Source: Paludibacteraceae bacterium
Lineage (GTDB): Bacteria; Bacteroidota; Bacteroidia; Bacteroidales; Paludibacteraceae
DNA length: 49,348 nucleotides
Direction: 5' to 3'
Assembly: GCA_017546705.1 (NCBI GenBank)
Contig: JAFYSB010000037.1
Coordinates: 1-49,348 of the forward strand
The notes below the pieces were generated by a model. It was given only the letters and a program-made list of their open reading frames with translations. It had not been told where the DNA came from and did no database searches. Positions 3,359-35,806 of the stretch are shown here, piece by piece. Position 1 is the first letter of the stretch, and each line of letters opens with the position of its first letter. Both the position numbers and the translations under genes were made by a program.

Positions 3359-3778
3359 TCAATAAAAAAATCTATCCTTTGTTATCTTGCTAAACAACCT
3401 AGATGATCGCACCTTATTCAGTATATCATTCATATGATTATCTAACAACTTACCTTTTATAAGCGTTTGTCCGCTTTGCATACTGCGCACAATAACGTCT
3501 CGAGGTAATGTTACCACATTAGTTGCAGAGATATATGAATCATGACTTAAAAATTCGTAATCATCTTTTGATATCGGGAACTGAAGACGCAATTGTTCTT
3601 CTTTTGTGTTCACATTGGTGTTGATTCTGGAGTTGATATAGAAAAATCCTGCCACCTCATCTTCAGTCACACCGACAACTACAAAAAACTTGGGATGATC
3701 AATATTTGCAAAAATATTAGAATATAATATCTGCCCTCTTTCCACAAGTATCTTAACAAGTTCAGATGGTAATTCCAT
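3359..3778 (-). CDS. Putative toxin partner of the Panacea protein
   Basis: A 139-residue protein of no family I can name. It begins 17 bases inside the end of the Panacea gene, so the two are co-translated. The sequence looks like a compact beta fold: ILYSNIFANIDHPKFFVVVG, then GFFYINSRIN, QLRLQFPISKDDYEFLSHDSYISATNV and a basic helical tail. The order 'IDHPKFFVV ... FYIN ... SYI' recalls the SH3-like barrel of MazF/PemK endoribonucleases, but no catalytic residues can be pinned down. In Panacea systems the partner gene is usually a small toxin, which is the main reason for this call. Confidence 0.5.
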   Translation of the reverse strand: MELPSELVKILVERGQILYSNIFANIDHPKFFVVVGVTEDEVAGFFYINSRINTNVNTKEEQLRLQFPISKDDYEFLSHDSYISATNVVTLPRDVIVRSMQSGQTLIKGKLLDNHMNDILNKVRSSRLFSKITKDRFFY

Positions 3779-4319
3779 GTGCCGCTGCCTCCATCTGCAT
3801 TTTCTGATTTACATATTCTATATACTCTTCGCTATCACCAACTTCACACAACATATCTTTAATAGACATTTTGCCATTCAATGCCGTATTGGTCCAAGCA
3901 AAATCATGTGACAGTCTTGTAAGTTCCTCAAATGTAAGATCTTTGCACATTGCAATAGCTTCATCAAGGCATTCAACATCGGACTCTGATAGATAATCCA
4001 AATTCGCGCACATTAATGGCATAATATCTTTCGAATTGACGAATTTGAAATATTGTTCCAAAGCTTTAGCTTCCGATGTATTCGCAAAAAAACTATCACC
4101 ACGAACGGCTTTCATGATATCATACACATTAGAAGGAACCGGACCATACGACATCTTTATATAGTCATCACCTGTTATAGAACGAGCATATTTAGACAAA
4201 TGAGATCTATCAGCAAAATATAGTATTTTACTGACTTTGTGCATATCTGCCGTTCCTAGTTTTGAGAGGACGTAGAGCATAGCTTGCAATGCCACATCTT
4301 TATTAAATGATGATTTCAT
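3762..4319 (-). CDS. Panacea-domain (SocA-like, DUF4065) antitoxin
   Basis: A 185-residue protein with the Panacea hallmarks near the N-terminus: KVSKILYFADRSHLSKYARSITGDDY followed by KMSYGPVPSNVYD. The domain is known from SocA and from a broad set of antitoxins that inactivate unrelated toxins. The C-terminal part (FEELTRLSHDFAWTNT) also fits the family. ATG at 4319 sits about 35 nt after a consensus promoter. It overlaps the downstream gene by 17 bases, the usual arrangement of a two-gene toxin-antitoxin operon, although Panacea proteins may lie on either side of their toxin. Confidence 0.85.
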   Translation of the reverse strand: MKSSFNKDVALQAMLYVLSKLGTADMHKVSKILYFADRSHLSKYARSITGDDYIKMSYGPVPSNVYDIMKAVRGDSFFANTSEAKALEQYFKFVNSKDIMPLMCANLDYLSESDVECLDEAIAMCKDLTFEELTRLSHDFAWTNTALNGKMSIKDMLCEVGDSEEYIEYVNQKMQMEAAAHGITI

Positions 4320-11313: not shown

Positions 11314-12540
11314 TTAAATTATAAACTTTACAGTGTTTTTGATTTCATCCATTAAATTATTTAATTCAGATCGTGAATTTGCGTAGGCTATGTAGAATCC
11401 TATGCGAGCAGTATCGCAGACTGCAGGACGAATCGTATCTCCTATAGTGAAATTTAATTTATATGCGAGTATATTAGGATTGGTCTTCAAGAAATCTTCT
11501 CCTTCTATAGCCGTAACAACACCTCCATTGGATGGTGCGTCAAAAAATTCTAAAACGGCACAACGATTTAGTAATTTTGGTTCTATTGTAGGTTCCTTTA
11601 TGTTAGAATCACCTAACGCCATCTTAATCAATGCCTCATAATTATCATATCCAGACATACATGGCACAATTAAATTTGATATTAAATTACCACCACCACG
11701 AGCACCTATTTCTATCAAATAAAATTCTCCATTTTCGTACTTGTATTCTGCATGCGTCAACCCAAATGGTAATCCACTCAAATTCACAAAATTATCATTA
11801 GTTTGACGTAGTTGGTCATAATTAAATTTAGGATTGTCATGTGAGAAAAACAATTCGTACGCTATATTTTCGTTATGTGCATAATGTTTCTTTTCTGATA
11901 TAATTAAAGATTTATGACCTTGAGGTGTTTTAATTCCATCTACCGTAAATTCCGTTCCTGAAATATATTGTTCACAGATTACAGCCTTTTCACCTCTAGA
12001 AAATGATTTAGCTTCTTCAAAATGATTAACTAAATCTACTTCTTCATTAATTGTAAAAACGCCATGACTACTGCTGCTATTAATAGGTTTTATAATCATT
12101 TTTCTATTTAATGAACGATAAAACTCTATAGCTTCTTGAACAGTATAGCATAATTTATATGCAGGGAAAGGAAGATTATGCTCTTGCAAAAATTCGCGCA
12201 TTCGAACTTTGCTAGCATATAATTCAGCAACTTTGGTGCCTTGAGAAGGAACATTTAGTTCTTCTGCTAATTCAGCAACTAATTGAGTTGCAATATCACA
12301 TTGTTCTGATATTACTGCATCAACATTAAGTTCTCTAATTATATCTAAGTAATTATCTTTTGCAAAAATATCAGACTGTATAACTTTGTCAGCTAAAGGA
12401 AAAGTAGGTGAATCATCTGCTGGACTTATAACAATTGATTCGCATCCCATTTCTCTGATTTTCTTCACAATAGGAACTTGCCATATTGCGCCTGGTAAGA
12501 CTACTATTTTCTTATTATTTTGCTTCATTTTATTTAACAT
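11314..12540 (-). CDS. ATP-grasp ligase (carboxylate-amine ligase-like)
   Basis: A 408-residue ATP-grasp enzyme of the PurK/carbamoyl-phosphate-synthase-like or L-amino-acid-ligase type. An N-terminal Rossmann-like part (KKIVVLPGAIWQVPIVKKIREMGCESIVISPADDSP) leads into the ATP-grasp fold: KVRMREFLQEHNLPFPAY, MIIKPINSSSSHGV (ATP-binding), EQYISGTEFTVDG, and FYLIEIGARGGGN (metal-binding Glu and glycines). It is the first gene of the leftward glycan operon; no clear promoter was found in the 166 bases before it, so it may be reached by read-through from the SIR2 gene or by an unusual promoter. Its substrate cannot be read from the sequence. Confidence 0.85.
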   Translation of the reverse strand: MLNKMKQNNKKIVVLPGAIWQVPIVKKIREMGCESIVISPADDSPTFPLADKVIQSDIFAKDNYLDIIRELNVDAVISEQCDIATQLVAELAEELNVPSQGTKVAELYASKVRMREFLQEHNLPFPAYKLCYTVQEAIEFYRSLNRKMIIKPINSSSSHGVFTINEEVDLVNHFEEAKSFSRGEKAVICEQYISGTEFTVDGIKTPQGHKSLIISEKKHYAHNENIAYELFFSHDNPKFNYDQLRQTNDNFVNLSGLPFGLTHAEYKYENGEFYLIEIGARGGGNLISNLIVPCMSGYDNYEALIKMALGDSNIKEPTIEPKLLNRCAVLEFFDAPSNGGVVTAIEGEDFLKTNPNILAYKLNFTIGDTIRPAVCDTARIGFYIAYANSRSELNNLMDEIKNTVKFII

Positions 12541-12706
12541 CTAATATTAACAAACCTCTCTTATAAATTCTGAATACCATAGTTTCACTTACTATCAATG
12601 TTTCATATCATATTTATTATTACAAATTAATTCTTATCAATAACTGTAAGCAATTATACGGCATAAAGTATGGTTGCATGGTGCCTAGGGTCATTGAGGT
12701 GGGAGT

Positions 12707-15331
12707 TTAAAATTTAATCTGACATTTACACAATTCTGGTTTAAGAACAGACTTGATTTGTTCATCTCCTCTATACTCTTCTAATAATGGCCAATTTATA
12801 ACATTATATTTGTCAGAGGGCGATTCTTTAATCAGCATTTTCAAATATTTGAGTAAATTCGGTTTGTCTCCCATTAACGCATATAATGCAACGTATTCTA
12901 AGTTACTTATTGATATGTATTGTGAATCTAATAACTTGCTTTTTAACTTACTTTTATAATCATATCCATTTTTTATCTTCTTTTTGGCATAAAGATAATT
13001 AATAACTATTGCAGGTGAACAAGCCATCGGACTATCATAATATTTTTTCAACAAACTTTCTACATCTTCATAACGATGTAGTTGCAAAAGCAAATAAGAA
13101 TATGAAACTAATTTAGATTCGTGTATGATTTTATCATCATATATTTTTTCCAAATATATTTCTAATGCTTTTTCATAGTTATGACTTAATTCATAATATT
13201 CATAATCTACTTGAGGCGTATGGGGTATTGATTTATATAATTCATCTAATTCGGTAGTTTTACCCATATAAGATAATATCTGCATCTTTCGTATATGCAC
13301 ATCCGGAGAAGAAGGAAGTAATTGCAAAGTAGATAATGCGTCTTCAAAATACTCATTATTCTTAAATATACCAGCTACTACCCATAAAAAATCATTAGAA
13401 GGTACATACTCATTATTATATTTTGTTATTATTTCTATCTTATCGTTTATTTTCTCATTTGATAACGACAACAAATATAACCTGATACAATCTTCCAATA
13501 AATTTAAATTATCTGCCTTTTTATAATAGTCTATAGAGTCATCATACATACTATCGTTATCATTTTTTAATAGGTGTGCTGCCTGTAAAGTATTTGGATG
13601 ATATTGTGACAATTGATAAATACTATCATATACAGATTTAGTCTTAGAATCCCGGGTATCTAGTTGGTTTTTGTATTTCTTTTTATAATATCTTATCTTC
13701 ATAATGTATGCCTCATTACCTATCTCGGGGCGTAACTCTATACTTTTATCTAATAAATCTTCTATTTTAGAAAAGATATTATGATTATCAGCAGTATCAA
13801 CTAAAAGCAATTCTTCATAGTTATCCACCAATAGTTCTGCTAATTGATTATATACAAAATAATCATTTTCAAAGATACTTATAGCACGTTCCAAATAAGA
13901 ACATTTCTGCGAAAAAGAGTCAGAACGTCGTGATGCAATAATGTAATAAGCTTGTTTCTGCGGTTGCAAAGTAATCAATTCATCATAATATATTTTTATT
14001 ATAGAGTCATCAATATCCTTCATCGCATCAACATACAACTCCAATAATTCCAACTTATATTGGCTTTTTGGCAATGTCATGATTGACATTGTTTCCAATT
14101 CATCTAGAACACTTTTATTTTTCTTAAATACATACAAGTTCTCTTGCAGTTCTTGTATCATTTTTCGTTCGGTTTCATCCATTAATGAATAATTAGAACG
14201 ATACATCACTCTATTCCTTCCATTTCTTATACTTGGAGTATCAGATTTTGCATCTTTTGAGAAATCTTTTGAAAATTGTATCCAGTCTTTTATTCGTTCA
14301 TCTTTATATCCTTGTTTTAGCCTTTGACAATCTGCACGTAACACAGTTGATTCGGATTCTTTTAAATATTGATTTTCTGTAAGTTGATCAATTATCTTTT
14401 CTTGATAACGTCGGGTCATTAATTCTTGCTTGATAGGCAATGCACCATTCAATAAACTATTATTAATCTCCGCCATCAGTTCATCAAATCCATCAATCTC
14501 TACGATATAGACCTTATCTTGCCATAATAATTTCTTCAATTCAGCATTTATATTAAATAATTCTCCTTTTTTAATACACCAATAAACACCATTCTTAAGA
14601 TATTCATCGTGTTGTAACAAGTAATTCAATATATCCCTTATTGATCTATCTTGTCCTGAATAACCAATAATGATTAATCCGTAATCTTTGGCAAATTCTT
14701 GAAACTTCATACGCATATTCTGTTCTAGCGACTCTGTTTCACGTAGTGTTGCTTTTATATTGTCAAATAAATAATCTCCATGTAGTTTTATAATTTTAGG
14801 TCGAGAAGAAGTGATAGTTACGCCAGAAATAGAAGAGTCATGGGCACACACTATAGGGCGAACAAATGAGAACCGATAGAACGCTTCATTTAATAAATCA
14901 TCAAAATTAGTCGTAAATACTGTATTAAAATATCCCTTTTCTATAAGATTTACTAAATAAGCATATCCAATTGAAGGAGTTTTATCTGCAACCTCTTTTT
15001 CTACAAATATTCTACGCTGCCTCTGTAAATCAAACCTATGTTCAAACAATGAAGCATATGGATTTGAATTGTCATACCAATCAGGGCTTTGGGTACTATA
15101 ATACTCTTCAAAAGACACAGAACCATCACTCTCATTATATATATCCTCTTTCCATTGAGTAATCAATTGTCCTCCAGATCTTATTCCAGATGTTATTGAA
15201 GCTCCTGCACCTAGAAACAATGTAAAATTAGGAGTCCCTATTCCATTACTTACTGGTGATATGTTAGCTATATATCTTACTAAATCAGCAACTGTTCTTT
15301 GCTTGTGTGATAATTCTGTTTTCTGTTCCAT
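12707..15331 (-). CDS. SIR2-domain protein with long helical (TPR-like) C-terminus, probable defence effector
   Basis: An 874-residue protein. Residues about 30-300 form a SIR2-like NAD-binding domain: LFLGAGASITSG, VFTTNFDDLLNEAF (Asn142 candidate), KLHGDY (His184 candidate) and LIIIGYSGQDRSIRDIL. SIR2 domains of this kind in Thoeris, DSR and related systems degrade NAD and stop phage growth by killing or arresting the cell. The remaining 570 residues are predicted helical repeats (for instance YYELSHNYEKALEIYLEKIY), probably a sensor or scaffold. The ATG at 15331 is preferred over an upstream TTG. It lies 166 bases downstream of the GIY-YIG-like gene in the same direction, and may act with that operon or alone. 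Confidence 0.85.
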   Translation of the reverse strand: MEQKTELSHKQRTVADLVRYIANISPVSNGIGTPNFTLFLGAGASITSGIRSGGQLITQWKEDIYNESDGSVSFEEYYSTQSPDWYDNSNPYASLFEHRFDLQRQRRIFVEKEVADKTPSIGYAYLVNLIEKGYFNTVFTTNFDDLLNEAFYRFSFVRPIVCAHDSSISGVTITSSRPKIIKLHGDYLFDNIKATLRETESLEQNMRMKFQEFAKDYGLIIIGYSGQDRSIRDILNYLLQHDEYLKNGVYWCIKKGELFNINAELKKLLWQDKVYIVEIDGFDELMAEINNSLLNGALPIKQELMTRRYQEKIIDQLTENQYLKESESTVLRADCQRLKQGYKDERIKDWIQFSKDFSKDAKSDTPSIRNGRNRVMYRSNYSLMDETERKMIQELQENLYVFKKNKSVLDELETMSIMTLPKSQYKLELLELYVDAMKDIDDSIIKIYYDELITLQPQKQAYYIIASRRSDSFSQKCSYLERAISIFENDYFVYNQLAELLVDNYEELLLVDTADNHNIFSKIEDLLDKSIELRPEIGNEAYIMKIRYYKKKYKNQLDTRDSKTKSVYDSIYQLSQYHPNTLQAAHLLKNDNDSMYDDSIDYYKKADNLNLLEDCIRLYLLSLSNEKINDKIEIITKYNNEYVPSNDFLWVVAGIFKNNEYFEDALSTLQLLPSSPDVHIRKMQILSYMGKTTELDELYKSIPHTPQVDYEYYELSHNYEKALEIYLEKIYDDKIIHESKLVSYSYLLLQLHRYEDVESLLKKYYDSPMACSPAIVINYLYAKKKIKNGYDYKSKLKSKLLDSQYISISNLEYVALYALMGDKPNLLKYLKMLIKESPSDKYNVINWPLLEEYRGDEQIKSVLKPELCKCQIKF

Positions 15332-15497
15332 GGTAAAATATAAAAAATATATCAAGTATTCTATTACCCACTATTAAGATACGCTGCTATAATGATGATT
15401 AATTGTGAAGAAGTTGATATATACAAACATTCAATTTATATTCTATCATGCCTCGTACCAATCAGTATGTTAATTATTCATTTTAGTAGACCTTACA

Positions 15498-15905
15498 TTA
15501 ATTAAAGAAATCTAGATAATTCATTGACTTTGAATTCCCACACACCGGACAATCTACTGGAGTTCCTTCTGGTTTTGCAGGGTGAACAGCGTTTACAAGC
15601 AAGCCATCCTCCCCTCCAAAATCATGATAATTTCGACATTCTTTTTCATATGCTTCCTGAGCTGTAGTAGCGTAACTAAATTTAAAGCATTCGTAACGAT
15701 ACTCTGGATGCTTCGCAAATTCCTCTATACCATGTCCTATTCGTTCATGTAAGTCTAAGTCAGACCGTCCAACGTACATTACGACAAACTGTCCACTCTC
15801 ATCTATATAACCATAGGCATAATTTCCAATTCGTCCACGTCCAACTACTCTGTCGATTATGTCTTGATTGAGGGGATAAGATGTTCCCATATTTAAGGAT
15901 ACCAT
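15498..15905 (-). CDS. GIY-YIG-like nuclease with C-terminal zinc-type motif
   Basis: A 135-residue protein, last gene of the six-gene operon. NYAYGYIDESGQFVVMYVGRSDLDLHERIGHG matches the GIY-YIG layout (the Y...Y of the first strands, then YVGRS with the following Arg). EAYEKECRNYHDFGG supplies conserved acidic and His residues, and HPAKPEGTPVDCPVCG ends in a CxxC. GIY-YIG domains cut DNA, or serve in repair and restriction. A TTG at 15917 opens the frame further upstream; the ATG at 15905 is preferred because it clears the previous stop by 5 bases. Confidence 0.6.
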   Translation of the reverse strand: MVSLNMGTSYPLNQDIIDRVVGRGRIGNYAYGYIDESGQFVVMYVGRSDLDLHERIGHGIEEFAKHPEYRYECFKFSYATTAQEAYEKECRNYHDFGGEDGLLVNAVHPAKPEGTPVDCPVCGNSKSMNYLDFFN

Positions 15906-15910
15906 AACTT

Positions 15911-16417
15911 TTACCAACTTAAATCATGTTTTAAATTATCATTTACTTTTGTCACATCAATCAAGTTTCTTTCTTTGAATGATGTGAGTAGTTCTTTAAT
16001 TTGGAGCTTTGTCACAACTTCAAAATGTCCTTCTCGCACCATTGGAGATATATAATTAGCTAATTTACCGATATGATTATAATCTAATTCTATCAAATCA
16101 CGATGATTATTTAGCAATTCTTCATTTAATCCCCCTGCCCTTCCTTTACATTTGTCAGAAATCTCTATTTCTATATTATGTAACTCATTTTCATCTAATA
16201 ATACAAAACATAACTTTTCTGCCTTGTCACGCCCTAACGCCAAGGCTACAATGGCTATATCTTTTTCATTTTCATCATTAGAACGCCATGTGCTCAGACA
16301 GTTGTTACTTGTTCTTAGATCAGCAATCGCATCTCCACATATTGTTGGATTTTTTCGATTTACATCTCTATGACCATCCCAACGTTCAAGACTACTTAAC
16401 ATCCTTAACAATTTCAT
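15911..16417 (-). CDS. Unrecognised protein of the defence-like operon
   Basis: A 168-residue protein of no family I recognise. Visible features are an N-terminal part with CGDAIADLRTSNNCLSTWR, a central DIAIVALALGRDKAEKLCFVLLDENEL, and a C-terminal helical part with LLTSFKERNLID. It has no membrane segment or signal peptide, so it is probably cytoplasmic. It starts 4 bases inside the previous gene (ATGA-type overlap), and its end lies just before the GIY-YIG-like gene, which argues that all are made together. No catalytic motif is evident; a partner or specificity role is possible. Confidence 0.55.
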   Translation of the reverse strand: MKLLRMLSSLERWDGHRDVNRKNPTICGDAIADLRTSNNCLSTWRSNDENEKDIAIVALALGRDKAEKLCFVLLDENELHNIEIEISDKCKGRAGGLNEELLNNHRDLIELDYNHIGKLANYISPMVREGHFEVVTKLQIKELLTSFKERNLIDVTKVNDNLKHDLSW

Positions 16418-17115
16418 ACTAATTCCTTCTTTAATTCTAAAACAACGACGTTTGCATATCGCTGTATCAATGGAGATGATATATTGGATGACTCTAATAA
16501 TTTAAGACATTGCTTATCTCTCCATGTTTCAATGGTCATGATAGCAGCCTCTTGGCACATCGGGTTCGGATTTTTAAGACCTAACTCTACTAAAGGGAAA
16601 AAAGTATCTATATCAGCAACTGTCGTTTTAGATTCTATTATCCGAAGTAGACCAGTTATTATGCGATCATCATCCCGATGTCTAGTATATACTCCATACA
16701 ACCACAAGAATGTTGTATATCTATTTTGAGAGATATTCTTCTCCACAAAATCAAGTATAGAATTGTTGTAACCATCTTCAAAATCAGTTCGTTCCAATGA
16801 AACAACGAAATCTTCTTCCTGCAAACGCAATGAATTCAAAAATTCCTCATTGTTTTTATTTATAGAGACACTACTCGTAGAACCTAGTTCTATACCATCT
16901 AATTTTAATGTATCATCATGGAATAACGACTCTGTTTTTTTGCGCACATTAATGGCGTCGTTTTCTAAATAGTCAGATAGTGAATAATTCTTTAATGCTG
17001 GATATTCAATCATCCATCTACTTGATTGAGTAGACTGTTCTAAATATTCTCTAGCACTTTGCATCAAAACATCTATACGTAGAGAAGACAATATTTCGCT
17101 TTCAACATTAATCAT
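16414..17115 (-). CDS. HEAT-like helical protein of the defence-like operon
   Basis: A 233-residue protein. The C-terminal half has repeated helix pairs (RIITGLLRIIESKTTVADIDTFFPLVELGLKNPNPMCQEAAIMTIETWRD), which read like two or three HEAT repeats. The N-terminal half is mixed and unlike anything I can name. Such repeats usually mediate protein contacts. It begins 2 bases after the previous gene and overlaps the next by 4, so it belongs to the same transcript. Confidence 0.55.
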   Translation of the reverse strand: MINVESEILSSLRIDVLMQSAREYLEQSTQSSRWMIEYPALKNYSLSDYLENDAINVRKKTESLFHDDTLKLDGIELGSTSSVSINKNNEEFLNSLRLQEEDFVVSLERTDFEDGYNNSILDFVEKNISQNRYTTFLWLYGVYTRHRDDDRIITGLLRIIESKTTVADIDTFFPLVELGLKNPNPMCQEAAIMTIETWRDKQCLKLLESSNISSPLIQRYANVVVLELKKELV

Positions 17116-17117
17116 AA

Positions 17118-17921
17118 CTACTGCATTAAATAAAAATTGAGGAATGATTCTCCATATCTAGGAGCTTCGGAGCAAAATATTTCAATTTCTTCTTTGTTAA
17201 ATACAAGTGCTTCGTTTGTCCTTGTATTGATATCGAACTCTATTGTATAAATCGGTACTATTTGATTTATCCCTTCTACATTTTGTACATACCTTTCCGT
17301 TTCTAACTTTGAAATATAATTCATCACTATCTTACGATCGCCTATTTTTTCTTCCACATAGAAGGTTTGTGTAAAATTTGTTTCTACTAATTCTGCAACC
17401 TTGAATTGAGAACGACTAAAGATTGAAGCAATCCACTGATTATATTCTTTTTCCTTAATATTTATGACAAACGCAGGAGCAAATGCTATTCTAGTTACTG
17501 AATATTTCGTAATAGCAATTAGTTTCAGAAACGCCTCCTTACATCTTTGCATCCTTTTATTCATCTCATCTAATGAATATTCTGCATGAGAAAAAGATAG
17601 ATAATCCACTTTTTGTGGGGTAAACACGATGCGTTCATTATTGTCTGGTGCTATCAACATCCATTGTCCTGATGGTGAAACTATTTTGTCTCTTATATTA
17701 AGGTCTGGATTTTCAATAGACGGAATCCAATCTGGGAATGCCTCTCCTAATTCCTTAATAACATCCACATTAGGTTTCACTTGAGGCATAAATATAGTAC
17801 CACGTACGCCCCTAATTGTCATTTTTGTTTCCATAGATATATCATTTATTCGGTTCTTATTTCCATTTTCATTATAATGTCTCTTATAGCAAGGAGCAAA
17901 TCTAGTTTTTCTCTCAGTCAT
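17118..17921 (-). CDS. Operon protein, possible TIGR04255-type
   Basis: A 267-residue cytoplasmic protein from the ATG at 17921. The region around PDWIPSIENPDLNIRDKIVSPSGQWMLIAPDNNERIVFTPQKVDYLSFSH has the feel of the TIGR04255 family (a 'W.L...D....I' core followed by a 'Y' strand), but the match is from memory and weak. The first 29 residues are basic and low in conservation character; the ATG at 17834 may be the true start, giving 238 residues. It lies 45 bases downstream of the DUF4276 gene and 2 bases upstream of the HEAT-like gene. Confidence 0.5.
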   Translation of the reverse strand: MTERKTRFAPCYKRHYNENGNKNRINDISMETKMTIRGVRGTIFMPQVKPNVDVIKELGEAFPDWIPSIENPDLNIRDKIVSPSGQWMLIAPDNNERIVFTPQKVDYLSFSHAEYSLDEMNKRMQRCKEAFLKLIAITKYSVTRIAFAPAFVINIKEKEYNQWIASIFSRSQFKVAELVETNFTQTFYVEEKIGDRKIVMNYISKLETERYVQNVEGINQIVPIYTIEFDINTRTNEALVFNKEEIEIFCSEAPRYGESFLNFYLMQ

Positions 17922-17966
17922 CTCTCAGTGATGAGTCGGTTGGTAATCTATTATTGAATTGAAATA

Positions 17967-18629
17967 TTATTCCACTATGTTCTCTATTTGAGTAAGCCAT
18001 TCATTAAATCGTGGACATTTTGTTCTGATAGTTTCAATACCTATAGTTTCGGCTATGATATTTCCGTACACGATTTTATTATAACCTTTAATAATTCGTA
18101 ATAATCGATGAGATGGAGAGGTTTCTGGACTATTGTTAATCATTTCTGGATTCGGATTCCCACTGATCACCTCTACTAATTCTTGCATTCCAACTAACTC
18201 TTCTTGGGGTATTACTTGCTTAAACACATCCACATCACAAAAAAGTAATCCTTCAAATTCATGTAATTGGATATATGGAATAAAACGATAACGCAAATCC
18301 TCATCAATATCTAATTGCATTTGAGTTTCAAGAAAACGCATCCGATCAGTCTTATTAACAATTGTTTGTGCTTCCGTCCATCCAGGAAATTGGTATTTCT
18401 CATATAAACCATAATAATCTATCAACAAAGTGACATATGCTTTTCGATCTTCACGCAAAGTTGTTTCAATTTGTTTCTTCAAGCGATCCCATCGAACAAT
18501 ACCTCCATTAGAATGCTTAATTCTGGGAGCGTGAAGAAATATTTCCATCGATTGGAAATGATTCGTTAATGTTTTATCGCAAAACTCCTGCTCCGTCTCG
18601 CCTTCACATATAATTACAATTCTTTTCAT
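17967..18629 (-). CDS. DUF4276 family protein (TOPRIM-like)
   Basis: A 220-residue protein with the DUF4276 signature: IVIICEGETEQEFCDKTL at the start, LLIDYYGLYEKY...W in the centre, IQLHEFEGLLFCD, PEMINNSPETSPSHRLLRI and IGIETIRTKCPRFNEWL at the end. The acidic start (CEGETE) and LIDYYG resemble TOPRIM metal sites as in OLD nucleases. DUF4276 genes are often next to AAA ATPase genes, as here, with a 5-base gap. Together they would form a split version of an OLD-like ATPase-nuclease. The nuclease function is inference; the family assignment is firm. Confidence 0.85.
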   Translation of the reverse strand: MKRIVIICEGETEQEFCDKTLTNHFQSMEIFLHAPRIKHSNGGIVRWDRLKKQIETTLREDRKAYVTLLIDYYGLYEKYQFPGWTEAQTIVNKTDRMRFLETQMQLDIDEDLRYRFIPYIQLHEFEGLLFCDVDVFKQVIPQEELVGMQELVEVISGNPNPEMINNSPETSPSHRLLRIIKGYNKIVYGNIIAETIGIETIRTKCPRFNEWLTQIENIVE

Positions 18630-18634
18630 AATGC

Positions 18635-19708
18635 TTAATTGTTATTTGGGTGCCCACCTGAAATTATATTTCGTTTCCACAAATCGTCCAATGTATAATC
18701 TTCAAGCCACTCACCTAGTTGGTCTGCAGATAAACGGTTATAAACACTTTCTCCTTGTTTCTGATCTACAGTCAAAACATCTTCTGGTTGGAAATGACCA
18801 ATTAAATCCGTTGATTGTGTAGCGGCAATTACCTGACAACCGCGTTGTGCGGCAGATTTAATCATTCCTGCCAATTTTGCTATAGCAAATGGATGCAATC
18901 CCAACTCTGGTTCGTCAATAATAATTGTCTGAGGTAATGATGGTTGCAAAAACAAAGTAGTAAGCGCTATAAATCTTATAGTTCCATCTGATAAATCATT
19001 TACTCTATATACAACGCCATATTTATCTTCCCATTGCAGTCTAATATTATTCTCAGTATCCGGTACTAATTTAAAATTATGGAAGTAAGGTGCTACAGAT
19101 TGAATAGTTCTTACTATTCTATTGTATACAATCAAGTTGGATTGTTGGATTCCATATAGAAACGCAGCTAAATTTTCACCATCGTGATATAGTACATGCC
19201 GTCCCGTTTCTGCATTTGACACCTTGGTAAATGGAGAATTCTTACTTGTATCATGAAAATGATATTTTTTCAATTCTTCTAAATACTTACGAATATATTC
19301 AGCACGAGGAATCGTATTGTATTGCAATTTAGACTCAGAAGAAAAAGATGAAATATCATACGCATTTGGTGCATACGGATTTTTATCATACCATAGGTTT
19401 TCTTCTGTTATAATGAATTTGTCTTGTCCCGAAGTTAACACGAAAGAATAAGCATTGCTATTTTCGAATGTTAACTTTACAGATATTTTCTCCGTTATTT
19501 TTCGACCTTGAAAGAGAAATGAGTCCATTCCACCATTTAACGACACATGCTCTTGTAAATTTCTTGCGTACATAGCACGTAAGAAGGTAAAGAATGATAA
19601 CAGATTGGATTTTCCACTTCCATTTGCACCAATCAATAAATTAATCGGCTGCAAGGTTATCGTCTGATTCTTTATTGATTTATATCCTGCAATTTCTATT
19701 TTTTTCAT
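18635..19708 (-). CDS. AAA ATPase (OLD/SMC-like), first gene of the defence-like operon
   Basis: A 357-residue AAA ATPase of the AAA_15/AAA_21 kind. Walker A is GANGSGKS at residues 27-34. The C-terminal half has the signature-like VNDLSDGTIRFIALTTLF, Walker B TIIIDEPELGLHP, and the switch His/Thr in QVIAATQSTDLIGHF. The middle (residues about 80-230) is a helical insertion. Such ATPases drive a partner nuclease or toxin in OLD, Gabija, Septu and related systems. Its partner here is probably the DUF4276 protein 5 bases downstream. It has its own consensus promoter at 19790-19821 with a leader of about 75 nt. Confidence 0.9.
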   Translation of the reverse strand: MKKIEIAGYKSIKNQTITLQPINLLIGANGSGKSNLLSFFTFLRAMYARNLQEHVSLNGGMDSFLFQGRKITEKISVKLTFENSNAYSFVLTSGQDKFIITEENLWYDKNPYAPNAYDISSFSSESKLQYNTIPRAEYIRKYLEELKKYHFHDTSKNSPFTKVSNAETGRHVLYHDGENLAAFLYGIQQSNLIVYNRIVRTIQSVAPYFHNFKLVPDTENNIRLQWEDKYGVVYRVNDLSDGTIRFIALTTLFLQPSLPQTIIIDEPELGLHPFAIAKLAGMIKSAAQRGCQVIAATQSTDLIGHFQPEDVLTVDQKQGESVYNRLSADQLGEWLEDYTLDDLWKRNIISGGHPNNN

Positions 19709-19789
19709 ATTTAAGAATTTATATTGATTACATAAAACCTATATTTCCATATCTTTTACACATATTCAGTTATCCTATCTAACCGCCTG

Positions 19790-19821
19790 CAAAGTTACAA
19801 AAAATTTTTGGATTATGCAAA
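19790..19821 (-). promoter_or_regulatory. Bacteroidetes promoter for the AAA-DUF4276 operon
   Basis: TTTG (19818-19821), a 20-nt spacer and TAACTTTG (19790-19797) on the minus strand. It lies just beyond the end of the aminotransferase gene (19833), so the operon can be transcribed independently of the glycan genes. Confidence 0.75.
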
Positions 19822-19832
19822 TTACAATTCTT

Positions 19833-20918
19833 CTACAGTGTTTCTAATATTGTATTTGCGATGCGTTCTACATCCTCAACTGGTAACGTATAGTACAATG
19901 GCAAGCACAAAATACGAGAAGCGATATCCTCTGATTGTGGCATTGCTACATATGGTACAATATCCGAGAAGGTATTCAATGAAGGATAGAAATATCTACG
20001 GGCAAAGACCTTTTCTGCTTGCAAAGCTTTCTCTACACGCAATAATGTTTCCTCAGAATCAAAGATCACAGGGAAATAGCTATAGTTGCAACTATCCTCA
20101 TTAATCTGTTGAAAGGTCAAACTTGGATTCACTTCCAACAAACTCTTATAGAGCATATACTTCTCTTTACGGTCATCCAATGCCGCTTGAAGGTATTTCA
20201 AATTGGCGAGACCCACAGAAGCATGTACCTCTGTCATCTTCAAGTTAGATCCCTCCTCAACGATATTCGTTTTGTCCTCAGAGAATCCAAAGAAACGGAT
20301 GCGTTTCATCTTAGCATCTAATTCCGCATCATTGGTAAAGCACCCCCCACCCTCGCCAGAATTTAGCATCTTGGTCGCATGGTAACTGGTGCAAGAAACA
20401 TCGCCATAAGAAAAGATGCTCTTGCCCTTATATTGTACACCTACTGAGTGGCAAGCATCGTAAATAACTTTCAAATTATGCTTCTTTGCAATCGCCTCAA
20501 TTGCCTCAATCTCGCAGGTATTACCAAACACATGCACAGGCATGATAGCTACAGTATTAGGCGTTATAGCGGCCTCTATCTTAGCTGGGTCAATATTCAA
20601 TGTGTCCGGATTGATGTCTGCATATACTGGCACACAGCCCTCGTACATAATGGCGCTAGTAGTCGCAATAAATGAGAATGGCGAGGTGATGATCTCACCT
20701 TTCACACCTAAAGCACGGATAGCTAACTGCAATGCTATGGTACCATTGACTACCACCGTATGATTCGACACACCATGCCACTCTGCCACCTCACGTTCAA
20801 ACTGCTGGAGCAAGGGGCCATTGTGCGTCATCACGCCCGAATCCCATACCTTTTGTAGGTATTCATTCACTTCATTTAGTGGTGCCAAAGTAGGCATTGT
20901 TACATATATATTCTTCAT
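19833..20918 (-). CDS. DegT/DnrJ/EryC1/StrS sugar aminotransferase
   Basis: A 361-residue PLP enzyme that transfers an amino group to a keto group of a nucleotide sugar. Family signs are GPLLQQFEREVAEWHGV, VVNGTIALQLAIRALGV, VYADINPDTLNIDP, YDACHSVGVQYKGK, and SYHATKMLNSGEGGGC with the PLP lysine. With the 2,3-dehydratase and 3-reductase upstream, the likely substrate is NDP-4-keto-2,6-dideoxyhexose and the product a 4-amino-2,4,6-trideoxyhexose; the exact position is inference. It follows the reductase gene by 49 bases, a gap filled with TTTAA-rich repeats. Confidence 0.9.
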   Translation of the reverse strand: MKNIYVTMPTLAPLNEVNEYLQKVWDSGVMTHNGPLLQQFEREVAEWHGVSNHTVVVNGTIALQLAIRALGVKGEIITSPFSFIATTSAIMYEGCVPVYADINPDTLNIDPAKIEAAITPNTVAIMPVHVFGNTCEIEAIEAIAKKHNLKVIYDACHSVGVQYKGKSIFSYGDVSCTSYHATKMLNSGEGGGCFTNDAELDAKMKRIRFFGFSEDKTNIVEEGSNLKMTEVHASVGLANLKYLQAALDDRKEKYMLYKSLLEVNPSLTFQQINEDSCNYSYFPVIFDSEETLLRVEKALQAEKVFARRYFYPSLNTFSDIVPYVAMPQSEDIASRILCLPLYYTLPVEDVERIANTILETL

Positions 20919-24708: not shown

Positions 24709-25155
24709 TTATTTATTAAAACGGGTTAATATAGTTCCATCTATGCTGGTAATTTCATTCCTTTGAACATCAAAAAAGTATCGCTCTATTTCTGCACTCT
24801 TTGGAGAGAAATTTACAAGTATTCCCATTGGTAGTTTTGTCAATCGCATGTAATTAAATAATTGGGCACGATGGTTAACTGACAATTGTTCAACCGCTTT
24901 ACACTCTACAATAATCTGATCCTTACACACAAAATCTAAGCGGTATTTGGCGTTCATCTTACGATCGTGGTATATAGGAGTGTATTCTCTTTCACGCTCA
25001 TACGCAATATTGTCATCTTCCAACTGCATCTCTAAACCCTCTTGATATACATGCTCATTCAAGCCAGGACCTAGCTCCCTATGCACCTCATAAATAGCAC
25101 CTATCACTGGATACATATAATCCTTCAAGGCATGTATATCAAAATTTGTTTTCAT
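24709..25155 (-). CDS. GxxExxY protein (PD-(D/E)XK nuclease-like fold)
   Basis: A 148-residue protein with the family motif as GLNEHVYQEGLEMQL (G-x-x-E-x-x-Y) after IGAIYEVHRELGPG, and the second conserved block RLDFVCKDQIIVECKAVEQLSVNHRAQLFNYMRLTKLPMGILVNF. The D and ExK in that block match the PD-(D/E)XK nuclease core. The family is common in Bacteroidetes, but its function is not known. It is flanked by AATTGACA arrays pointing away from each other (24,601-24,642 and 25,231-25,271), as in a small mobile cassette. It stands between wzt and a gene remnant and is not part of either pathway. Confidence 0.88.
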   Translation of the reverse strand: MKTNFDIHALKDYMYPVIGAIYEVHRELGPGLNEHVYQEGLEMQLEDDNIAYEREREYTPIYHDRKMNAKYRLDFVCKDQIIVECKAVEQLSVNHRAQLFNYMRLTKLPMGILVNFSPKSAEIERYFFDVQRNEITSIDGTILTRFNK

Positions 25156-31445: not shown

Positions 31446-32120
31446 CTATATTATTTGTGATTTACAACGTGCCACTATATATATAAAAGAAAACAACAAC
31501 AGAGGTAATATTGAATCACCTATTGGCATTCCTTCCATAGGTGGCCCGAAGGCATTACGTTTTGCACGTATATGAGCAATTTGTGAGTCTTCAAAAGGAG
31601 TACGCAAAGAACTTGCTCCTATAATTACATCATTTGTTGTATAATCTATAGGCGTACCTAAAGTGTTATGTTTAACATTTGTATAAACAAATTGCGTTTT
31701 TGCTAAAGGTTTATAAAAAGAAAATGTTTGTATGACAGCATCGTCTGTTCGACCAATAGATTGACCGAAGGATTTATATTTAGCACTATTGTTGTATCTT
31801 CGAAACGGTAGGTAATCATTTGCAAAAGTACCCACATTAACAGATTGTAGTTCTTCAAAAGGTGTATGTAAAGAATTTGTGGGTATATTAATTTGCATAT
31901 AGTCGTTGCCATTCACCATTTCTAATTGTGTGTTATTCGCTTCATACCCTTTATGATATGAAGTATGAATATCTCTTGAGGTATAATGATGATTATACTT
32001 GTTATTTGTTGTGCAAGGTGTTTGTATTTGAACACCACCCATTAATCCCAATACAACTTGAGATATTAAAAGCAATAAAATTAGGGATACAATATATATA
32101 TATTTTATTTTAGCAGGCAT
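31446..32120 (-). CDS. Small exported protein with C-terminal PIGD-type anchor, partner of the T9SS surface protein
   Basis: A 224-residue protein with an N-terminal signal or anchor helix (residues 6-28) and a second hydrophobic segment at the very end (PIGDSILPLLLFSFIYIVARC). The C-terminal P-[IL]-G-D plus hydrophobic tail recurs, from memory, in Bacteroidales proteins encoded next to large secreted proteins. Between the helices there are three loose repeats of about 25 residues with an FG-x-P[IM] end (SLRTPFEDSQ..., NTLGTPI, NAFGPPM). The function is unknown. It starts 16 bases inside the end of the 1,233-residue gene. Confidence 0.6.
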   Translation of the reverse strand: MPAKIKYIYIVSLILLLLISQVVLGLMGGVQIQTPCTTNNKYNHHYTSRDIHTSYHKGYEANNTQLEMVNGNDYMQINIPTNSLHTPFEELQSVNVGTFANDYLPFRRYNNSAKYKSFGQSIGRTDDAVIQTFSFYKPLAKTQFVYTNVKHNTLGTPIDYTTNDVIIGASSLRTPFEDSQIAHIRAKRNAFGPPMEGMPIGDSILPLLLFSFIYIVARCKSQII

Positions 32121-35100
32121 AATTTCAAGATTTCATTATGAGTAACGATAACATAAATACCACTTGTTAAATCATTAAAATCACTTAATGAATTTATTGT
32201 TGAATTATAAATTAGATGACCAGTAACGTTATAAATACGAATAATATCATTTAAGTCTATTTCATCAAATGAATATATTGTTTCTATTGCTGTTGCAATA
32301 CCGTCATTTTCAACTTTTTTATCAGTGGTAATTAAGAATCTTGCATCATTATCTGATGGGATATGATAAAACGTGTAAGTCTCATTGTTTAGGATATCGA
32401 CATATTCATTGGTTATTATATCGTATAAATATAATTCATCGTAAGAATGTAATTTGTCAATATCGAACGTCAAAGTATACATTTCATATTCTGAATTACC
32501 TTCAAATCCTACATATTGATTGTTCAATGTCATACTTGTATTAATGGATGTGTAAATACTATCATTAATAGCAAATATTTGTGGACCGTTATTATCAAAT
32601 ATCTTTATTGCATCATATCCATTGTCAAAATTAGGTGTGCAATTTTTATGTTCTATAAGATATAATCTATCGTTGGATGTTTCACTCGTAACATTGATTT
32701 TAAGCACATTGAACTCATTATCAGCATTGCTTACAATACGTTTTTGATTAGCGAAAGAAGTAGTATTGTACACATTTTTTTCATAATCCACGATAAATTG
32801 TCCGCCACCAGAGAGTGATGCTACGAAAAACGCCTGTGACGATGCAATGGTGCGAGGATATTCCGAACCCAAGCTTGAACTAACATTAACAGGTATAGCG
32901 ATTGTTTGTCCTGGATTAAATCCTATAGTATTCGTCTCTTGCGTTTTCCACTCGATATAAGAACCAGTATTGTAAATAAAAATGGTTGCCTGGGCATTCC
33001 TGAAATTATCAGAACTTAAAGAAGTAATATCTATAGGTGCAGAATAACTATTTGTGATCAAGTTATTACCCAAATCATCCGTGCTATTGGCACTCTTAGT
33101 ATAAGTCAACTCATACGTATGATCCTCATTTAACAAATCGCCTGTGTATGTATAAGTATGTGCGTTCTCTTGAGCAATACAATATCCATTCCATGCATAT
33201 AAGTCTGATCCTGCATTGAGTTTTTCACTCCAACAAGTAACTGCATTTTGAGTTTCATCCCATTTGTATATCCAATTAGTTGTACCATCTGGATTGATGT
33301 CTGAATATTTTAAAGACTCGGCAATAATGCCTATATATTGCCATTTAGGGTCGTAAAAATTTCCTGCGACACCATTTTTGAGACCGGTTGAAAATGATTT
33401 AGAATACAATTGTATGGTCGCTCCTACTTTATTTGTATTTTTAAATAAGAATGAACCAGTATTATCCTCATTCGATTCAATCGTAATATTAGTATTACTT
33501 CCTTTTTTTAAGTTATCTATTTTGAGAGCTCCTTGAGGTTTGATAGTGATGGATGTGTTGTCCTCTAATGTAACATTTTTTGCTTGAATCGTTACATTAT
33601 CAGGTACAGTAACATTAGCCGCGATAATAACATCTTCGTCTGTATTAGGTACTCCAAAAATCCATTTGTCGTTTTCTCTCCATTCTCCATCAACGTAAAA
33701 GGTATTGTAAGGCCAAACCTTAGCTGTGATAGTTACCATTTTTGAACGTATGCCATCACTCACTGTAATACGCGCTACTGCTTCGCCATCTTTAGTTGGT
33801 GTAAAACGAACACTAAAGTCATAACTACGGTTATCTGTCTGACAGAAAGTTCCGGATTTTTTAGTTGCCTTACTACAAATAACAGTCTTATTAGGAGCGA
33901 AAGCACTATTATCAGAAGTAACTTTTAGTTCGTTGTCAACCAAAAAAGATTTAAATCGTATAGGTATATCAACATTGTCACCAATTTTAACATTGCCTAA
34001 ATCAATAGTTTCGGTTTCCATTAAAATATGACGAGCAACCCTAGAATAGGCATCACCAAAATATATTTCTTTGAATCCCCCTAAGTCTCGAGTACCTAAA
34101 AACTTAACTTGAGTCAACGATTGATTTATCGGTTCAACTTCTGTTTGAAATTTATTGTCTTCAAGATAAGTAGTGTATCCATAATTTGTACCCGTTAACT
34201 TATATTTTTTACCAGTCGCATCATCTTCCACATAATGCGTGACATTAGCTGCATCTATTACCCACGCACGATACTTCAAATTTTCTTGTGGATAAGAAAA
34301 ATACCAGTAAAAAGGTGATGCTCCACCAGGTAAAGTATTTGTAATATTTAGGTTAATATAATGCCATTCACCCTTGTATATATAATAAGCATCTTTGATT
34401 GATGATGACGCATTATATGTAGTAGGTGTTTCAACAAAAGCACTCACCCATCCTACGTTTACGCCACCTTGCTGGTATGCTGAAACATCAAAAGTTTTAG
34501 TACTACCGTTTAGTGTGTACTTGAAATCTACACCGATATAGACACAAAAACGGGTAGCATCATCTACATCATTTATGGTTAATGAAGTAGTATTTATATT
34601 TTCAATATTATCTATTGAACGATAGTGTGTTAAACGTTCGCAACGCACGTCATAATAATCGTTATAATAGATATGTACTCTATAACGAACAAATTCATGA
34701 TTTGGTTGCAAGTCCACTTTGTTCCAGTTGATTGTAAAACTATTCTGCCCCACATTGGTAAACCAGATACTCGAAGTTTTAGGATATGAATGCGTTGTAA
34801 CATCTATTACATTTGAAGGATTAGATGCTGAAGAGCCATAAATTGATTTAACAGTATATTTATGATTTGATCCCATAAGTAAACCTGTAATAGTAGCACT
34901 CGTGCCAGTTACAGATGTAACAAGATTACCATTATCATAAATATTATATGAGGTCGCACCATCAATCTTATTCCAAGATAATTTCACATAATCATACGCA
35001 TTCTCATCACATTTTAATGTAGGAGGATATAGTGCACTCGAGAGAGTGCTGATAGGAATATCAATAGTGCTTCCAATAGGCGCGCCACTATTAACAATTC

Positions 35101-35806
35101 TAACCTTATAACCGCTTAATGAAAAAATAGATTGAGGATTAAATGTAACAGTTATTGAATAGTTGTTTTCTCCAATTTTTTCTAACACATTGACTCCAAT
35201 ACTGCTATTACTTAATGTTAAGCCTGGGACGGTAACTTTATTGCCGCTATTATCTACCACATACGCTTGAATACCGCTACCTCCCGAAAGGAATGAATAA
35301 TAATCTATTGTTTGCGTTTGTGTTGTACCTACTGGCACATTTACAAATGAAATAGAGCTGGTATTCATCTTGGTATGTGGCGCCATTTTCACATAAATAT
35401 TCTTAACAAGGCGTTCACTAGTACCTGCAACACGGCGAAATGCGATACCTGTTGCGTTGGAACTTAAATTACCACTTTCTGTGGTATACCATGTCTTTTT
35501 ATCTGATAATAAATAGGTGTAAAATACAGACCAACTACCACTAACTTGGTGTTGAACCTCTATTTTTTTCTTGTCGTCACCACCAGTTATAGAAGCTCGA
35601 TAACAATCAAATTTAACATGATTACTTGGATAACTATAATAAACATCAAGATTATTACCATCTTGAATATCGTATTGGTTATATACAATGGTAGAATACC
35701 AGGTCGAACCGCTTTTTGTTGCGCCAGTACCATTATCTGTTTGGACAGCATAACCACATATGCTAAACACGGATGCTAAAACGAGTAAAAAATGTCTTGG
35801 TTTCAT
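32105..35806 (-). CDS. Large T9SS-secreted surface protein with fibronectin type III domains
   Basis: A 1,233-residue secreted protein. It has an N-terminal signal peptide (MKPRHFLLVLASVFSICGYA); two fibronectin type III-like domains at about residues 258-440; an ASH-like Ig domain at about 585-700 (DLGNVKIGDNVDIPIRF...VRFTPTKDGEA); a beta-helix-like region (NVTVPDNVTIQAKNVTLEDNTSITI, about 700-790); and a final T9SS type A-like tail (IIRIYNVTGHLIYNSTINS ... GIYVIVTHN). It should be exported across both membranes by the type IX system and fixed to the surface or released, perhaps as an adhesin. A G10 tract lies in its leader (35,936-35,945), and the small exported protein is encoded downstream with a 16-base overlap. 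Confidence 0.85.
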   Translation of the reverse strand: MKPRHFLLVLASVFSICGYAVQTDNGTGATKSGSTWYSTIVYNQYDIQDGNNLDVYYSYPSNHVKFDCYRASITGGDDKKKIEVQHQVSGSWSVFYTYLLSDKKTWYTTESGNLSSNATGIAFRRVAGTSERLVKNIYVKMAPHTKMNTSSISFVNVPVGTTQTQTIDYYSFLSGGSGIQAYVVDNSGNKVTVPGLTLSNSSIGVNVLEKIGENNYSITVTFNPQSIFSLSGYKVRIVNSGAPIGSTIDIPISTLSSALYPPTLKCDENAYDYVKLSWNKIDGATSYNIYDNGNLVTSVTGTSATITGLLMGSNHKYTVKSIYGSSASNPSNVIDVTTHSYPKTSSIWFTNVGQNSFTINWNKVDLQPNHEFVRYRVHIYYNDYYDVRCERLTHYRSIDNIENINTTSLTINDVDDATRFCVYIGVDFKYTLNGSTKTFDVSAYQQGGVNVGWVSAFVETPTTYNASSSIKDAYYIYKGEWHYINLNITNTLPGGASPFYWYFSYPQENLKYRAWVIDAANVTHYVEDDATGKKYKLTGTNYGYTTYLEDNKFQTEVEPINQSLTQVKFLGTRDLGGFKEIYFGDAYSRVARHILMETETIDLGNVKIGDNVDIPIRFKSFLVDNELKVTSDNSAFAPNKTVICSKATKKSGTFCQTDNRSYDFSVRFTPTKDGEAVARITVSDGIRSKMVTITAKVWPYNTFYVDGEWRENDKWIFGVPNTDEDVIIAANVTVPDNVTIQAKNVTLEDNTSITIKPQGALKIDNLKKGSNTNITIESNEDNTGSFLFKNTNKVGATIQLYSKSFSTGLKNGVAGNFYDPKWQYIGIIAESLKYSDINPDGTTNWIYKWDETQNAVTCWSEKLNAGSDLYAWNGYCIAQENAHTYTYTGDLLNEDHTYELTYTKSANSTDDLGNNLITNSYSAPIDITSLSSDNFRNAQATIFIYNTGSYIEWKTQETNTIGFNPGQTIAIPVNVSSSLGSEYPRTIASSQAFFVASLSGGGQFIVDYEKNVYNTTSFANQKRIVSNADNEFNVLKINVTSETSNDRLYLIEHKNCTPNFDNGYDAIKIFDNNGPQIFAINDSIYTSINTSMTLNNQYVGFEGNSEYEMYTLTFDIDKLHSYDELYLYDIITNEYVDILNNETYTFYHIPSDNDARFLITTDKKVENDGIATAIETIYSFDEIDLNDIIRIYNVTGHLIYNSTINSLSDFNDLTSGIYVIVTHNEILKLCLLK

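Follow-up and report, generated by a model that had tools for sequence, protein, structure and literature searches.

The block of seven genes at positions 12707-19708 of contig JAFYSB010000037.1 (Paludibacteraceae bacterium, assembly GCA_017546705.1) most probably represents three independently occurring units arranged head to tail. These are the catalogued candidate defence system HEC-01, a cassette of four small genes (hereafter A, B, C and D) and a single gene encoding a SIR2-TPR protein (Table 1). We assign this reading a probability of about 0.8. The window analysed was the whole 49,348-nucleotide stretch, within which the block is filled by seven open reading frames (ORFs), all on the minus strand, as an initial annotation made from the letters alone had stated. 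That annotation read the first six genes as one undescribed operon followed by a SIR2 effector. Its description of the stretch as defence-like stands, and its single six-gene unit does not: HEC-01 and the cassette each occur elsewhere in the absence of the other, and we therefore read the block as three units rather than one.

Table 1 Features of the block in the window and selected neighbours of related cassettes in other genomes (E, E value; aa, amino acids).
Feature	Position	Strand	Evidence
HEC-01A, AAA_21/OLD-like ABC ATPase, 357 aa	18635-19708	minus	PADLOC E 1.6e-133; Pfam AAA_21 E 5.1e-32
HEC-01B, DUF4276 protein, 220 aa	17967-18629	minus	PADLOC E 7.1e-81; Pfam DUF4276 E 3.9e-60
Gene A, weakly TIGR04255-like, ~238 aa	17118-17834 (mechanical ORF 17118-17921)	minus	TIGR04255 20.1 bits; L053 homologue
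Gene B, HEAT-like, 233 aa	16414-17115	minus	L053 homologue 60%; L087/L089 phmmer; HEAT_2 in L088 homologue
Gene C, 168 aa, PHROG_10743 family	15911-16417	minus	PHROG_10743 E 1e-13
Gene D, GIY-YIG-like small protein	15498-15905 (mechanical ORF to 15917)	minus	L053 homologue adjoining C; 7-sequence alignment
SIR2-TPR protein, up to 882 aa	12707-15355	minus	SIR2_2 E 3.4e-15; PHROG_14359 E 6.7e-132
Bacteroidota-type promoter, TTTG-N20-TAnnTTTG	19790-19821	minus	Exact pattern match
L043 neighbours (PD-T7-4-like DUF4145 protein; RT; TIR effector)	L043 1519-5331, upstream of cassette		PD-T7-4-like E 6e-63; TIR E 1.1e-8
L088 neighbour, SoFic			PADLOC E 6.3e-23
L089 neighbour, PLD protein, ZacB			PADLOC E 2.7e-10

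The first two genes corresponded, adjacent, in the same direction and in order, to HEC-01A and HEC-01B of PADLOC-DB 2.0.0, and genes 3-7 matched no HEC model. The labels given initially to the AAA ATPase, DUF4276 and SIR2 genes all agreed with Pfam. Excerpts of one paper define HECs as Hma-embedded candidates, describe several of them, HEC-06 included, as active in assays, and do not name HEC-01 there (PMC12988326); an excerpt of a second paper reports HEC-01 as predicted in a Desulfovibrio strain (PMC12724379). DUF4276 was found in 15/395 genomes of the class, the window's own included. Around each of the 14 other loci, 12.5-14 kb were read and compared with the window's genes (phmmer, E ≤ 1 and again E ≤ 0.01), using largely non-overlapping ORFs of ≥60 aa only. 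An AAA gene lay directly before DUF4276 in 13/14, one of which (L024) had a stop within the DUF4276 frame; in the remaining locus (L029) DUF4276 was only a 65-residue piece and the AAA gene was absent. At neither threshold did any of the 14 loci contain a match to window genes 3-7. On these comparisons HEC-01, a catalogued candidate system, is independent of the genes that follow it here. Scanning viral contigs with the window DUF4276 protein gave nothing of use, and no paper on DUF4276 was found in the literature searched.

The cassette, in turn, was found in other genomes. Its closest copy, on an uncultured rumen Bacteroidales contig (RUG644, locus L053), carries A, B, C and D in the same order (67, 60, 71 and 67% identical, respectively), and no AAA, DUF4276 or SIR2 match was present in the 12.5 kb read. 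The genes were otherwise sporadic. Gene A was found in 1/200 genomes of the family and gene B in 1/395 genomes of the class, in each case only the window's own, and gene C in 2/198 genomes of the phylum, again including its own. The second genome with C (G721, locus L043) kept this order, with a TIGR04255 gene first, then a HEAT-like gene, compared with window B at phmmer E = 0.029, and then C (E = 1.5e-22). In the class of G721, 5/195 genomes were matched by a profile built from six C proteins, that of G721 among them. Two of the four new genomes had all three genes (G761, G777), one had B-C with a broken A (G758) and one a broken C at a contig end (G795). By locus, A-B-C was present in L043, L088 and L089, L087 held B-C with a broken A, and L090 also held a broken copy. 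Scans of viral contigs with window A, B, C and D singly gave nothing of use. Upstream of the L053 cassette, at L053:1102-2984, lie three small genes and a HEPN-like gene whose match (E = 5.2e-4) scored 20.6 bits, under the cut-off of 22.

One alternative is that the six genes form a single defence system in which the ATPase-nuclease pair senses, A-B-C-D play accessory or regulatory parts and one promoter serves them all. The shared strand, the short gaps and a promoter before the AAA gene, with none found before A, would suit such a system. Against it, A-D were absent from all 14 other DUF4276 loci, and neither AAA nor DUF4276 was present near the cassette in any of the 14 cassette loci read. 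We consider it very improbable and, as the halves occur independently, rejected it. In none of the other loci read were the six genes found together. The initial annotation had not recognised the gene order as that of a named system, and had stated that membership of one, or an order confined to close relatives, would count against its proposal. The first two genes do belong to a named candidate, HEC-01, while the order of the following genes is that of no named system and was conserved beyond close relatives.

The seventh gene also appeared separable. Residues 11-592 of its product matched PHROG_14359, and its tail had a weak TPR match (E = 0.0033). The SIR2 domain is common to the effectors of short prokaryotic Argonaute (pAgo) systems (SIR2-APAZ and SPARSA; PADLOC E = 2.4e-56, PDB 8in8 E = 4.8e-18), and the SIR2 half matched PDC-S65 (E = 2.5e-26). 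However, the PADLOC matches were confined to the first 345 residues and the rest of the protein, unlike pAgo systems, had no Argonaute/APAZ match; nor was an Argonaute/APAZ partner found among the adjacent genes searched (the ATP-grasp gene and the cassette genes). Four phage records matched the SIR2 half; in the two that were read (a Vibrio record and a Haloferax virus) the matching gene is likewise a single gene. None of the 14 HEC-01 loci and none of the 14 cassette loci had a SIR2 match at E ≤ 0.01, and SIR2 was rejected as the operon's effector on this ground. The SIR2-TPR gene is best taken as a separate single-gene effector candidate, and lone effector genes of this kind are known.

Transcription would nonetheless probably be shared in the window. 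The single consensus promoter noted initially was borne out in its Bacteroidota form, which we take to be TTTG-N20-TAnnTTTG. It lies 81 bases ahead of the start codon of the AAA gene and is the only exact minus-strand match from 12541 to 19821, so that read-through of all three units from it is likely. Short matches around ~19773-19835 recurred in many rows of the genus DNA search, and the L053 cassette, by eye, carries its own promoter-like sequence resembling this one. Across both strands of the window, TTTG-N17-23-TAnnTTTG occurred 18 times against 2.07 expected, giving a usable promoter map; a scan for E. coli-type promoters showed no excess (43 found, 46.8 expected).

Within the cassette, C was the best conserved gene. 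Residues 3-162 of its 168 matched PHROG_10743, a family of phage proteins of unknown function that also matched C of L043, L046 and L048, and all 6/6 pairs of C groups were linked in profile comparison (E = 2.6e-7 to 3.9e-17). Gene B of the window gave no Pfam HEAT match, nor did B of L046 and L053. The HEAT-like label given initially was supported through the L088 homologue only, which matched HEAT_2 below the cut-off (E = 3.6e-5; 24.4 against 27.7 bits). The L087 and L089 homologues matched window B at E = 2.9e-5 and 3.7e-5, respectively (phmmer). No curated Pfam or NCBIfam family was matched above cut-off by the B and C proteins searched, and none of 13 cassette proteins scanned (the window's and nine from three loci) had a PADLOC match. 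The three-gene system 3HP was also considered for the cassette; the nine proteins from three loci matched nothing in PADLOC, a library that may lack 3HP.

Gene D appears to be an optional member of the cassette. Homologues were found in three other genomes of 395 (G395, G429 and G271), without A-B-C, and on two plasmids. No HMM match to GIY-YIG or any other family was obtained from the Pfam, PADLOC, NCBIfam and PHROG libraries, whereas in an alignment of seven sequences the G, YVG, E and N columns were conserved in 7/7, and most sequences, though not L040, also had the R that follows the YVG segment. The GIY-YIG label thus found support in motif positions and not in HMM matches. In G395, D lies with other genes, one of them TIR-like by eye, and in G429 it lies beside an ORF labelled HNH-like by eye.

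Comparison with homologues also revised two gene starts. The L053 homologue of A begins at the residue equivalent to 17834, which moves the start of A from 17921 to 17834 and probably widens the gap after DUF4276 to 132 bases from 45. The L038 homologue of D begins at MVSLNMG, equivalent to 15905, so that D possibly starts five bases after C instead of overlapping it by seven. The spacing of -7 to 45 bases given initially is therefore probably too narrow at its upper end and possibly altered at its lower end. All four cassette genes encode maintained proteins under purifying selection, as judged by low dN (0.20-0.30) between window A-D and L053 and an identity that was higher at second (0.77-0.88) than at third (0.41-0.48) codon positions; dS came to 2.7-3.3 for C and D, whereas no value could be computed for A or B.

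Gene A was related to TIGR04255 (NCBIfam) to differing degrees. L043 gene A matched well (E = 3.2e-33), and the L088 and L089 genes matched L043 A at E = 8e-91 and 6.3e-94. For window A, the TIGR04255-type label rests on a match that is visible (E = 4.5e-4) and lies under the curated cut-off (20.1 against 30 bits). In the window's class, TIGR04255 exceeded this cut-off in 9/149 genomes (10 matches), the window's own genome having none. A second ORF followed in the same direction in 9/10 of these loci (L091-L100), at spacings of -71 to +12 bases as measured from mechanical ORF starts. These nine ORFs formed four groups (phmmer E below 1e-3), and none matched our B and C profiles (best E = 0.09); window B and C are thus unlike the partners sampled there. 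None of the 10/16 partner ORFs searched exceeded a Pfam cut-off. In the tenth locus the TIGR04255 gene comes after a type IIG restriction-modification gene. Three plasmids matched TIGR04255: in a Vibrio plasmid the gene is followed by a hypothetical gene and then one of the zeta-toxin family, in a Thermus plasmid it comes after a VapC-family toxin gene with cas6 ~2.5 kb further, and the third is from Crinalium. TIGR04255 genes look like the heads of a cassette class that is polymorphic, its partner genes falling into at least four groups unrelated in sequence. Since they usually head small operons with other partners elsewhere, A may be the constant gene of such a class. No paper on TIGR04255 was found in the literature searched.

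The cassette is carried by small plasmids and phages. In the plasmid collection, L043 C retrieved seven records and C of the Acinetobacter locus nine, those seven included; two of the nine are chromosome-sized A. baumannii records, and six of the nine were read. Trio-sized genes in one direction, C last, were found on two ColRNAI plasmids from Klebsiella (4375 and 8065 bp), Acinetobacter plasmids of 7513 bp and 134 kb, and an Enterobacter plasmid of 5042 bp, and the cassette is the main cargo of the cryptic plasmids of 4.4-5 kb. Window C matched five of the six records read (E = 1.8e-9 to 3.8e-10 or 6.4e-9); C of the Enterobacter plasmid, found via Acinetobacter C (E = 1e-12), did not match it at E ≤ 0.01. 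In A. baumannii the trio lies behind a gene read as a prophage endolysin, and phage Ab105-1phi has the same trio after a gene annotated as a secretion activator, here read as an endolysin. The third gene is cut to 61 codons in phage B1251. C was present in 12 phage records, with ≥80% coverage in three, and on 26 viral contigs, 24 with the whole or nearly whole gene and two with the first 52 residues only; as all 26 were identical to the query where matched, they represent one lineage. In the Acinetobacter phages, A, B and C have PHROG families of their own (13731, 14576 and 10743, respectively). A second set, 19817 and 21208, matched A and B of the Klebsiella plasmid, and at least one further viral lineage may thus exist, although none was found in the phage collection. 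Scans of viral contigs with Klebsiella C or the A pair gave nothing of use, and neither did searching plasmids with window A, B and C, phages with window C or E. coli genomes with the Klebsiella trio. In three Acinetobacter phages (L078, L079 and L052) the sequence of C differs after the first 52 residues, a possible recombination point inside the cassette.

Both in the window's phylum and among Gammaproteobacteria, B and C thus keep their order behind an A-sized gene. By sequence comparison the putative A-B-C order, uncatalogued in PADLOC, recurs on small plasmids, in Acinetobacter phages and in a second class of the phylum. This distribution bears on two further explanations. A-B-C may be a toxin-antitoxin or plasmid-addiction module, with C or B the toxin and A its neutraliser. 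Its place as main cargo of the smallest plasmids, its small and tightly spaced genes, the broken copies in L087 and L090 and the toxin-family genes near TIGR04255 on the Vibrio and Thermus plasmids would all agree. Yet three proteins are conserved, not two, A, B and C match no toxin or antitoxin family in the libraries searched, and the Acinetobacter phage lineage carries the trio after the lysis gene, a usual place for phage cargo; we regard this explanation as unlikely. We consider it about equally unlikely that A-B-C are phage-derived genes serving a prophage, in lysogeny or superinfection exclusion, and captured by plasmids and chromosomes. The PHROG families for the Acinetobacter phage genes, the second set matching Klebsiella A and B and the 26 viral contigs are in its favour; however, those contigs are a single lineage, and every other lineage read is plasmid-borne or chromosomal. 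This explanation overlaps with our three-unit reading, as exclusion counts as a defence function.

The genomic setting might point to a different role again. The block sits within a polysaccharide-biosynthesis locus, between a DegT aminotransferase gene (19833-20918) and an ATP-grasp gene (11314-12540), and the L053 cassette also lies, by eye, beside polysaccharide-biosynthesis genes. An ordinary metabolic or cell-envelope role would account for this placement. It is a distant prospect, given that no enzyme family was matched, that the plasmid and phage copies lack such neighbours and that two same-genus genomes, which share some of the flanking sugar genes upstream (73-77% DNA identity), have different genes at the block position; one of the two lacks the DegT gene. 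The G+C content of the block is 28-35%, and the genes below it, down to ~8000, are equally low, so that composition alone does not mark an island.

Chances are roughly even that the cassette has a defence role, as suggested by its mobility, its sporadic occurrence and a few hand-picked neighbours, in addition to HEC-01 and SIR2 in the window. Of ten neighbour proteins chosen by eye at four loci, 5/10 had PADLOC matches, all at L043, L088 and L089 (Table 1). Several points weigh against this role or against the three-unit reading. The other five neighbours, among them all three taken from upstream of the L053 cassette, had no PADLOC match, 5/10 is an uncontrolled count, and the RT beside the L043 cassette perhaps belongs to a group II intron. 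In the window, a further promoter between HEC-01 and A was looked for and not found, so that the two may be co-transcribed and hence cooperate. A single A family is also open to doubt: our own TIGR04255 profile missed window A in a seven-sequence search (E = 0.23) and matched plasmid and phage A marginally (E = 0.0014-0.21), the best profile comparison between window and plasmid/phage A groups gave E = 0.0042, and six pairs of A groups gave E = 0.032-0.68. The A position is kept in order and size, but its groups could not be united into one family by sequence. The B groups are only partly linked (three of six pairs at E = 4.4e-5 to 0.0013, three at 0.023-0.24). D was present among cassette loci in the window and L053 only (0/13 others, E ≤ 0.01), and its assignment relies on the general GIY-YIG nuclease motif, GIY...YIG with a following R, E and N. 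The TOPRIM-like nature of the DUF4276 protein is our assumption.

Should the cassette serve mobile elements as an anti-phage (or anti-plasmid) module for excluding rivals, A could be a recognition or scaffold subunit, as this gene type holds the first position while partners change elsewhere, B a helical adaptor linking A and C, and C, the best conserved of the three, the effector core; D, where present, would add a GIY-YIG-type nuclease. By analogy with their families, the HEC-01 ATPase would be a sensor that gates a TOPRIM-like nuclease, and SIR2-TPR would act through NAD+ depletion. Read-through from the single strong promoter ahead of AAA may serve all units. More tentatively, and at somewhat less than even odds, A-B-C(-D) would be an undescribed mobile immune system found on chromosomes, in phages and on cryptic plasmids. 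TIGR04255-type proteins would then be what stays constant, in first position, in a whole class of small operons whose following one or two genes are swapped among at least five sequence-unrelated partner sets. Such a polymorphic sensor-plus-partner architecture would be a class unrecognised so far. As an immune module, the cassette, with ~1.8 kb of coding sequence, would be small enough to be the main cargo of a 4.4-5 kb plasmid, would give TIGR04255 its first role and would explain why these sporadic genes are usually found in company (9/10 TIGR04255 loci). As this block shows, defence genes lined up in one direction should be checked for occurrence apart from one another before they are described as a single system.

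Elsewhere in the window, a 148-aa protein of the PD-(D/E)XK nuclease superfamily (24709-25155; PDDEXK_3, E = 5.2e-36) had no PADLOC match. A 1233-aa protein with a single fn3 match lies in a low-GC stretch (32105-35806) and overlaps a 224-aa ORF without a match. At 3359-4319, a SocA/Panacea antitoxin-like gene (E = 3.3e-23) overlaps a 139-aa ORF without a Pfam match, forming a candidate toxin-antitoxin pair.

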